A stretch of 64,000 bases of DNA, from NCBI RefSeq assembly GCF_001891125.1, contig NZ_CP015247.1, forward strand, positions 700,501 through 764,500, given 5' to 3'. The translations under genes and the position numbers were made by a program. Source of the stretch: Leuconostoc suionicum. GTDB taxonomy: Bacteria > Bacillota > Bacilli > Lactobacillales > Lactobacillaceae. The notes under the pieces were generated by a model. The model did no database searches. It had not been told where the DNA came from and saw nothing but the letters and a program-made list of their open reading frames with translations. This document shows, piece after piece, positions 3,760 through 37,601 of the stretch; position 1 is the stretch's first letter, and each line of letters opens with the position of its first letter.

Positions 3760-3794
3760 TGGTACAATGAAGTTGTAAAGTGTAAGCGGTTACA
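3760..3794 (+). promoter_or_regulatory. pdh operon promoter with perfect cre box
   Basis: Extended -10 TGGTACAAT (3760-3768) with a poor -35, followed by TGTAAGCGGTTACA (3781-3794). This matches the catabolite-responsive element consensus TGWAANCGNTNWCA at every position. The cre begins a few bases downstream of the expected start point, a position where CcpA normally represses by road-block. The lplA Shine-Dalgarno AAGGAG follows at 3797-3802. Confidence 0.85.
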
Positions 3795-12358: not shown

Positions 12359-13531
12359 TTAACGCAATGATTTACGATATCCTGCCGCTTGGGCTTCTGC
12401 TTCACTATTAAAATAAACAGCGTTGCTACTGTTCATATAGTAGCCAGCTTGACCAGGGACATGATAAATATGTGATTTTGAGTTTCCGATAATTTGTTGA
12501 CTTTCACCAGTGTATGTTTGTGTTGCTGCAGATTGATTCTGTGCTGCTTGTGCTTGGGCAGATGACGCTGCTGCAGAATTAGCGGCTGCTTGAGATGACT
12601 CGGCGGCTGCCTGTGATGCACTAGCTTCACTTGCAGCTTTTTGTGCAGCAGCTATTGAAGATTGTTCTGCTTCGGAACTAGCTTGGGCAGATGACGCCGC
12701 TTCAGAACTGGCTCTGGCAGATGAAGAGGCTGCCGCAGAGCTAGCTTCTTCTGCAGCTTCATTTTGAGCGGCTAAGTCAGCCTTTTTGTGTAATGTATTT
12801 TTGGCCGTTCCATCAGCATAATTAATAATTGCGTTTGAACTGTCATTATTTAGGTAAACTACTGTTGCACTGTCATTACCATCTTCTTCACGGTATGATT
12901 TAAGACTAATCTTAACTTTCTCTCCAGAGCTAGAATAGCCTACGTAAGATAGGCGAATCTGTCGTGGCAGGAGTTCGTTGCCACTATACATTGGCGTAAC
13001 TTGATAATCTAAACGACTTGATTTGTGTTGCTTAAGCCATTTTGTGAGACCTCTTTCATAATAAAGCATAGCTTTTTTATTACTAGCATTTGATTTTTTA
13101 AGCGCACCAGTATTTAGGTAAGCTGTCTCTGGGACTAAGTTTTTTGCTTCATCATTTAAACCGCTGAATTGGTAGCCAATCAGGTGTCCGCGATTGAATA
13201 GCCATGACTTACCAATAGACGCATTGGCTTTTTTATATTTGAACTTATAGTTGTGCCAACCAACAGGATTGTAGTTTAGTTTTGTCGCTTGTTTTGCGGT
13301 CGGTTCTTCAGCATAATTGAGCTGAATATGAGCATCAACCGCACGCTTTTGACTATCTTGATCAGCTAGAACAAGTTGTTTTTCGTTTTTGAAATTAAGA
13401 GGATGCTGCTCAGCACCACTTAGTTTGTCATTCCGATAACTATCAGCAGCAACACCTAAAGCAGGGTATATCGTACTAGTGGTAACCACTAACACTGCAC
13501 TGATAGTTACTTTTTTTAGTAACTTTAACAT
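12359..13531 (-). CDS. Secreted DNA/RNA non-specific endonuclease (EndA/NucA type)
   Basis: Extracellular nuclease. The start is taken at 13531, since GGGAGAG lies 8-14 bases before it; a longer frame from 13573 lacks a ribosome site. The 390-residue product begins with a signal peptide (basic MLKLLKK, then a hydrophobic run to about residue 28). A beta-beta-alpha metal nuclease domain follows, with the NRGHLIGY catalytic motif near residue 115 and a downstream conserved NLVPETAYLN. Then comes a roughly 90-residue Ala/Ser/Gln/Glu low-complexity linker. The small C-terminal domain (SKSHIYHVPGQAGYYM to AEAQAAGYRKS) resembles the Ada-type metal-binding-like domains often attached to secreted nucleases. 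DNA scavenging is the likely role. The plus-strand neighbours are unrelated. Confidence 0.87.
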   Translation of the reverse strand: MLKLLKKVTISAVLVVTTSTIYPALGVAADSYRNDKLSGAEQHPLNFKNEKQLVLADQDSQKRAVDAHIQLNYAEEPTAKQATKLNYNPVGWHNYKFKYKKANASIGKSWLFNRGHLIGYQFSGLNDEAKNLVPETAYLNTGALKKSNASNKKAMLYYERGLTKWLKQHKSSRLDYQVTPMYSGNELLPRQIRLSYVGYSSSGEKVKISLKSYREEDGNDSATVVYLNNDSSNAIINYADGTAKNTLHKKADLAAQNEAAEEASSAAASSSARASSEAASSAQASSEAEQSSIAAAQKAASEASASQAAAESSQAAANSAAASSAQAQAAQNQSAATQTYTGESQQIIGNSKSHIYHVPGQAGYYMNSSNAVYFNSEAEAQAAGYRKSLR

Positions 13532-13625
13532 AATAAATTCTCTCCCGAACAGTTTAACGTGGATATTTGGCACGTATTGAACAATTATTTTTTTATTTTT
13601 AAGCGTAAGCTACCATACTTTCTTA

Positions 13626-13674: not shown

Positions 13675-13716
13675 TTGTATGATATATAAATTTAAAAAAA
13701 TTTATATATCATACAA
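13675..13716. repeat. 19-bp perfect palindrome between two divergent promoters
   Basis: Left arm 13675-13693 and right arm 13698-13716 are perfect reverse complements of 19 bases, with a 4-base AAAA centre. The arms are AT-rich and carry no T-run. The element lies between the nuclease promoter (minus) and the TTGACG/TATAAT promoter (plus), ending 4 bases before the latter's -35 box. It may be an operator or a cruciform-forming element; function unknown. Confidence 0.8.
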
Positions 13717-13720
13717 GGTA

Positions 13721-13767
13721 TTGACGGAACTTAAAATGCTGATATAATAAATTTGTAAGCGTTTTCT
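13721..13767 (+). promoter_or_regulatory. Strong promoter with overlapping cre-like site
   Basis: TTGACG (13721-13726), 16-bp spacer, TATAAT (13743-13748). TGTAAGCGTTTTCT (13754-13767) covers the expected start point and matches the cre consensus at 13 of 14 positions. No open reading frame of note follows; see the candidate small RNA. Confidence 0.75.
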
Positions 13768-13890
13768 TATATTGAGAATTCGTTTACACAACAATAATTT
13801 TCTGACAATGGTTCAGATGCTCCTTAAATATGTATGCTGAAATGTGTACAAAAAATAAGATGTGGTCACGGAAAACCATATCTTATTTTT
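13755..13890 (+). ncRNA. Candidate small RNA, about 136 nt
   Basis: Bounded by a strong promoter (start expected near 13755) and an intrinsic terminator (13851-13890). The only internal frame I find with a clear ATG is 10 codons (13808 onward) and has no Shine-Dalgarno. With a cre-like site at the start point, a CcpA-responsive regulatory RNA is a reasonable guess. A short-peptide mRNA or a truncated leader are alternatives. I do not recognise the sequence as a known RNA family. Existence is inferred from the punctuation signals only. Confidence 0.55.
13851..13890. terminator. Bidirectional intrinsic terminator of the candidate small RNA
   Basis: 16-bp stem, 13851-13866 with 13875-13890, containing one G-T pair and an 8-base loop (CACGGAAA). 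A-run on the left and T-run on the right allow termination on both strands. Confidence 0.85.
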
Positions 13891-13930: not shown

Positions 13931-13979
13931 TGATATAATTTAAACTGGTTGTGACCTACGATAGTTTCGAAAATATAAT
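13931..13979 (+). promoter_or_regulatory. Candidate promoters for the tRNA gene
   Basis: Extended -10 TGATATAAT (13931-13939) and a second TATAAT (13974-13979) with TTGTGA 19 bases before it. Either could drive the tRNA that begins at 14033. The interval 13891-14032 holds no coding frame that I can support. Confidence 0.45.
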
Positions 13980-14032
13980 GATGTAAAATTACCAATTTTA
14001 TTTCAAAGTACTATTGTGGGGCATTACTGTCT

Positions 14033-14106
14033 GGACCATTAGCTCAGTTGGTTAGAGCAAACGGCTCATAACCGTTCGGTCGTTGGTTCGAGTCCAACAT
14101 GGTCCA
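14033..14106 (+). tRNA. tRNA with CAT anticodon (Met elongator or lysidine-type Ile)
   Basis: Complete 74-base cloverleaf. Acceptor GGACCAT pairs with ATGGTCC (14099-14105), the D-arm is GCTC/GAGC, and the anticodon stem is AACGG/CCGTT with loop CTCATAA, anticodon CAT at 14067-14069. The T-arm is GTTGG/CCAAC around TTCGAGT. Discriminator A at 14106; CCA is not encoded. It is not an initiator, because acceptor position 1-72 is paired G-C and the three G-C pairs of initiator anticodon stems are absent. The GGACC acceptor and CGGTCG variable region resemble the tRNA-Ile that TilS modifies to lysidine, so a Met label should be treated with caution. Confidence 0.93.
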
Positions 14107-14202
14107 TCTATTTATTTCAATTTAGTAGGAGCTTGTCTTCAAATTGCCTTTCTGATATGGCTTTTTTATAGATACCAATCAATAAAAACGAAATAGGCTA
14201 AG

Positions 14203-37354: not shown

Positions 37355-37496
37355 GAAAAATTGTGGTCATAATCTCAATGAAGAAACGATACTTAACAAA
37401 CTTGTATTATTTCATCATCACATATTATAGTGATGACGTCACAAAACATAGTACTGTCAAAATATGTCATTTCATTAATACATTTTCAAGTAAATC

Positions 37497-37563
37497 TCCC
37501 TACGCTAGTATTATCTAGATCAGGTATAATGGGTTTTATCTCAGCGCGGCGGCACCCCAGATT
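37497..37563 (-). promoter_or_regulatory. TPP (thi-box) riboswitch
   Basis: Read on the minus strand the element runs CTGGGGTGCC, then GCTGAGAT, ACCC, ACCTGATCTAG, TAAT and GCGTAGGG. These are the conserved blocks of the thiamine diphosphate aptamer in order. It lies about 300 bases before ykoE. When TPP is bound it is expected to shut off the uptake operon. Confidence 0.95.
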
Positions 37564-37601
37564 TTGGTGTTTTCAGTTATTTGTGAAAAGCTCACGCATA
37601 G

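Follow-up and report, generated by a model that had tools for sequence, protein, structure and literature searches.

What does a stretch of DNA encode when it carries a promoter, a cre and an intrinsic terminator, with no credible reading frame in the ~136 nt that they bound? This question is raised by positions 13721-13890 of the 64,000-nucleotide stretch of Leuconostoc suionicum DNA analyzed here (the window). The locus lies between a secreted nuclease-like gene on the minus strand (12359-13573) and a tRNA-Met gene on the plus strand (14032-14108), the latter 140 nt away; gene names rest on inspection of the translations and not on family searches. A sequence-only reading of this DNA had proposed a candidate CcpA-responsive small RNA (sRNA), delimited by TTGACG-16-TATAAT, a one-mismatch cre and a 16-pair terminator. 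All three elements are present and bound the unit as described (13755-13890), and no peptide is conserved among the five homologues presented below, in agreement with the earlier view that the unit is non-coding. We propose that the locus probably encodes a stand-alone, CcpA-repressed sRNA that acts in trans by pairing with ribosome-binding sites. Leuconostoc is among the chief organisms in the fermentation of vegetables and dairy products, and no CcpA-controlled small RNA was found for this genus in the literature searched; the sRNA is very probably previously undescribed.

Elements of the predicted gene

The predicted sRNA gene is built from the following elements.

13721-13748, plus strand: promoter TTGACG-16-TATAAT, with the -35 TTGACG at 13721-13726, the -10 TATAAT at 13743-13748 and a TG before the -10
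13754-13767, plus strand: cre (CcpA-HPr-Ser-P operator) TGTAAGCGTTTTCT, with one mismatch, lying across the predicted start point (about -1 to +13)
13755-13890, plus strand: predicted sRNA of ~136 nt, starting at G13755, 7 nt past the -10; both ends are predicted
13755-13787, plus strand: hairpin 1 (GTAAGCG/CGTTTAC), starting at the predicted 5' end, with 7/7 pairs in all five sequences
13801-13817, plus strand: hairpin 2 (TCTGAC/TTCAGA in the window), in which one pair has changed in a compensatory way; the window copy does not form this pair
13820-13828, plus strand: CUCCUUAAA, the predicted seed, invariant and predicted to be single-stranded, containing the CUCCUU of the anti-Shine-Dalgarno sequence
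13831-13850, plus strand: hairpin 3, with compensatory and G-U changes between clades
13851-13890, plus strand: intrinsic terminator of 16 pairs and a U run, with compensatory changes in 8 of 14 counted pairs

The promoter matches the consensus at 11 of 12 positions and is the joint best of 16 sites in a scan of 3.1 kb, in which 11.7 sites were expected, a count near chance when taken alone. A one-mismatch cre is not rare by itself either, with nine in the window against 4.1 expected on both strands. When the two are combined, requiring a -10 that matches in 5/6 positions or more, a -35 that matches in 4/6 or more and a cre whose start is 2-8 nt past the -10, just three sites remain in 304 kb of the L. 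suionicum genome (both strands). The promoter at 13721-13748 is the best of the three, and one of the other sites falls within a coding region. Because this cre lies over the start point, repression is predicted in the presence of a preferred sugar, and we regard such control of the sRNA by CcpA as likely.

Just 5' of the -35, the window contains a perfect AT-rich inverted repeat, TTGTATGATATATAAATTT...AAATTTATATATCATACAA (13675-13716), which is not kept in two of the homologues, G014 and G010. Elsewhere in the window, a TPP riboswitch lies on the minus strand at 37480-37569 (Rfam RF00059, 69.7 bits).

Distribution of the unit in Leuconostoc

Conservation outside the source strain had been set beforehand as a test of the sRNA. 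A DNA search followed by reading identified homologues in four further genomes, for a total of five out of 19 Leuconostoc genomes. Two homologues are full length, G014 (L. mesenteroides-like) with 95% and G010 with 86% identity, and both are located upstream of the same tRNA-Met. G017 (L. pseudomesenteroides KCTC 3652) and G003 (L. falkenbergense), which make up clade 2, gave partial DNA matches that, on reading, proved to be diverged full units. In clade 2, the unit has a glyoxalase-like (VOC) gene on one side and a secreted transglycosylase-like gene on the other, and neither the nuclease nor tRNA-Met is near it; in L009, it is on the minus strand. The promoter and cre are almost identical among the homologues despite strong divergence of the transcript: TTGACG, TATAAT and TTGTAAGCGnTTnC of the cre are kept in all five, as are the four hairpins, in the same order. 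That promoter, cre and RNA architecture have been conserved jointly in five species, and in two genomic contexts, is the strongest support for the predicted sRNA gene, and it backs the initial interpretation as a CcpA-controlled small RNA. We have very high confidence that these sequences represent a real, new sRNA gene restricted to the genus.

A covariance model run against the 19 genomes yielded five clear matches, one copy each, with the rest of the genus at noise. No sRNA gene is detectable by this model in 14 of the 19 genomes, so the gene is not essential to the genus. Across the family (397 genomes), the covariance search returned only the five homologues and two further matches, G079 and G341, from other genera, which were rejected because they match the model weakly and in a terminator-like hairpin only. 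Other cre matches obtained by similarity, namely L011, L012 and a number of weak ones, were also discarded as non-homologous; most are unrelated cre-bearing regions. A pattern scan of genome contigs, a collection from which near relatives of the source genome may be missing, found two Leuconostoc only, and its matches in unrelated groups are near the few that chance predicts.

The sister species G013 is a natural loss of the sRNA. The same locus, on the reverse strand of L237, is flanked by the nuclease and tRNA-Met and still holds a recognizable terminator remnant; the promoter, cre and seed are gone. Ten other topA-upstream regions contain neither tRNA-Met nor the sRNA, and the G003 region ends early at a contig end.

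A second, similar unit was observed in three further Leuconostoc genomes, at ~1501-1650 of L088 (G004), L089 (G005) and L100 (G007), where a TATAAT and a start-point cre are followed by a hairpin. This unit has no clear ORF and no CUCCUU, and adjoins a divergent gene starting MADTIVKKPVKK. It may be a further CcpA-controlled sRNA or a relative that has diverged very far.

Fold, open motif and proposed action

All five RNAs can fold, by prediction, into hairpin 1, hairpin 2, an open CUCCUUAAA, hairpin 3 and the terminator. The predicted fold in the window has an energy of -36.6 kcal/mol, a stability far beyond that of shuffles (z of -5.1) to which the terminator contributes most, and leaves ~13818-13830 open. 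The sequence-only reading had regarded 13768-13850 as unstructured and recommended it for target prediction. This part of the proposal did not hold: the segment contains most of hairpin 1 as well as hairpins 2 and 3, and the conserved anti-Shine-Dalgarno motif within it had gone unnoticed.

In a hand alignment, compensatory changes between the clades are seen in hairpins 2 and 3 and the terminator, with eight pairs in the terminator alone. The 3' arm of hairpin 2, for instance, is GTCAGA in G014 and G010, and the hairpin reads TCTGAT/ATCAGA in clade 2. Since the sample consists of five sequences in two clades, these covariation events are few and mostly reflect one clade split. An automatic alignment, with 82% of cells paired, gave a weaker covariation signal because the arms are misplaced by a few columns. 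Hairpin 1 is nearly invariable, as expected from one of its arms belonging to the cre, and so provides little evidence of selection on the RNA.

The motif CUCCUUAAA, between hairpins 2 and 3, is invariant in all five homologues. Its mean unpaired probability is 0.97-0.99 in four of them and 0.56 in G010, where part of the seed is paired in the predicted MFE fold and the consensus fold lies 1.5 kcal/mol above it. A nine-base identical run has a chance of ~0.04-0.33 at 45-60% identity and could thus arise by chance; the weight of CUCCUUAAA therefore comes from its anti-Shine-Dalgarno identity and its open position. The CUCCUU it contains belongs to the 16S 3' end, CACCUCCUUUC, as established for 16S rRNA in general.

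These features suggest a mechanism that begins at the promoter. In cells supplied with a preferred sugar, CcpA and HPr-Ser-P would occupy the cre at the start point, blocking transcription. Without such a sugar, the ~136-nt RNA would be made, with its 5' hairpin and intrinsic terminator, and the internal hairpins 2 and 3 would keep CUCCUUAAA open between them. The open motif would pair with Shine-Dalgarno regions of type UUUAAGGAG and keep a group of mRNAs, probably from carbon or energy metabolism, from being translated. Shine-Dalgarno blocking in trans is, by prediction, the best mechanism for this RNA, and we consider it reasonably likely.

Four other explanations have to be weighed against it. 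The RNA could be a CcpA-repressed sponge that captures some other RNA or a protein, in the way that RosA captures RoxS, without acting at ribosome-binding sites. Its nearest functional parallels, RosA and RsaI, are both CcpA-repressed and interact with other sRNAs; they do so through G-rich regions, however, whereas the open conserved part in Leuconostoc is C/U-rich and anti-Shine-Dalgarno, and no RoxS/RsaE-like Rfam match exists within the 64-kb window, which makes a sponge improbable. It is quite improbable, too, that a functional cre and promoter drive an RNA with no regulatory role, either as a by-product or from a CcpA-gated promoter that is decaying in some species. The loss in G013 and the lack of a detectable copy in most of the genus would fit such a history, but the compensatory changes and the identity of the seed across clades, at different locations, point to selection on the RNA.

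The proximity of tRNA-Met, downstream on the same strand, brings up an attenuated leader or a separate promoter of that gene, with no free RNA gene involved. We judge this very unlikely given the strong terminator in between, another promoter-like site (10/12) at 13951-13979 and the different gene that the unit precedes in clade 2. A short mRNA for a small peptide, such as MLLKYVC or the 22-residue MRIRLHNNNFLTMVQMLLKYVC frame, is the most far-fetched: clade 1 does contain frames of 6-23 codons, but they lack a clear Shine-Dalgarno sequence, the frame that is shared stops prematurely in G010 and is missing from both species of clade 2, and conservation tracks the hairpins and CUCCUUAAA.

For Shine-Dalgarno blocking by the sRNA, candidate targets were sought among ribosome-binding sites with UUUAAGGAG in the five species and with UAAGGAGC in clade 1. 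The pairing background was taken from 261 ribosome-binding sites in 20 sampled genome stretches and the window; ~1% of them pair at -18 kcal/mol or better, which would correspond to some 20 genes genome-wide, and most genes with an UUUAAGGAG site are housekeeping genes. In clade 2, the sites with an 11-13-nt perfect complement include those of a KDG-kinase-like sugar kinase and of a GH65 sugar phosphorylase, the latter encoded in a GntR-PTS-GH65-phosphoglucomutase operon that is preceded by a perfect cre (L179, 7111-7124, in L. pseudomesenteroides). The clade 1 candidates are ribokinase, transketolase, lplA-pdh and a permease-like protein. The pdh cre described earlier is real: it is a perfect cre at 3781-3794, directly before the Shine-Dalgarno sequence UUAAGGAGC of lplA, the first gene of lplA-pdhABCD, and this Shine-Dalgarno sequence pairs with the sRNA motif at -16.3 kcal/mol, which is not exceptional. 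In a search for targets common to both clades, a permease-like membrane protein displayed ~11-nt perfect pairing in each, with a duplex energy that does not clearly separate the matched from the mismatched clade. At -20.3 kcal/mol, ppc pairs well, yet it was rejected because species that lack the sRNA show much the same Shine-Dalgarno context there. The predicted targets are not clearly above background.

A broader and doubtful idea is that of a promoter-cre-RNA cassette family, present at different loci in part of Leuconostoc, whose bare anti-Shine-Dalgarno motif would tune the sugar-phosphorylase, sugar-kinase and pdh-operon mRNAs. CcpA would then repress the sRNA as well as part of its target set, forming an incoherent loop.

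Comparison with known small RNAs

The Leuconostoc unit combines features of two functional classes. Like CcpA-repressed sRNAs, it has a cre over the start point, its own promoter and terminator, and no ORF; like anti-Shine-Dalgarno sRNAs, it has a conserved motif predicted to be unpaired, more weakly so in G010. No Rfam family, 6S included, matched the sRNA at gathering or relaxed thresholds, and there was no match to RsaI/RsaOG or RosA, the latter being covered only if Rfam has a RosA model.

The streptococcal csRNAs, which are CiaR-dependent, and the C-rich sRNAs of the LhrC/RsaE type carry an open C/U-rich motif, complementary to Shine-Dalgarno sequences, between hairpins, as is predicted here. 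These RNAs are regulated by CiaR, LisRK and SrrAB/ResD, not by CcpA, and csRNA and LhrC are multicopy, whereas the Leuconostoc sRNA is single copy and cre-bearing. Some 6S RNAs of lactic acid bacteria are thought to be CcpA-controlled and have cre sites (PMC8414754). 6S RNA is ~200 nt and forms a long hairpin with a central bubble, in contrast to the four separate hairpins found here; with neither this hairpin nor an Rfam 6S match, identity with 6S RNA was rejected.

The closest parallels in control are RosA and RsaI. Repression by CcpA has been demonstrated for RosA (S345) of B. subtilis, a stand-alone sRNA whose cre spans -1 to +12 (PMC8216469). The Leuconostoc sRNA shares the stand-alone organization, the cre position and, by prediction, the control logic, but RosA works as a sponge, binding RoxS and FsrA through G-rich regions, unlike the open CUCCUU motif predicted here. 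RsaI (RsaOG) of S. aureus is repressed by CcpA and blocks translation by pairing with Shine-Dalgarno sequences (PMC9266662). It is similar in size (111 nt), and both its control and its pairing resemble those predicted in Leuconostoc; it differs in its G-rich motifs and in having known targets, glcU_2, fn3K and icaR. The Rfam scan found no sequence relation that would indicate descent from RsaI or RosA. If the proposed reading is true, the Leuconostoc sRNA, which is easy to test and which one species has lost naturally, would be a further CcpA-repressed, Shine-Dalgarno-blocking RNA beside RsaI and RosA, and its apparent lack of relation to either suggests that the same control evolved repeatedly.
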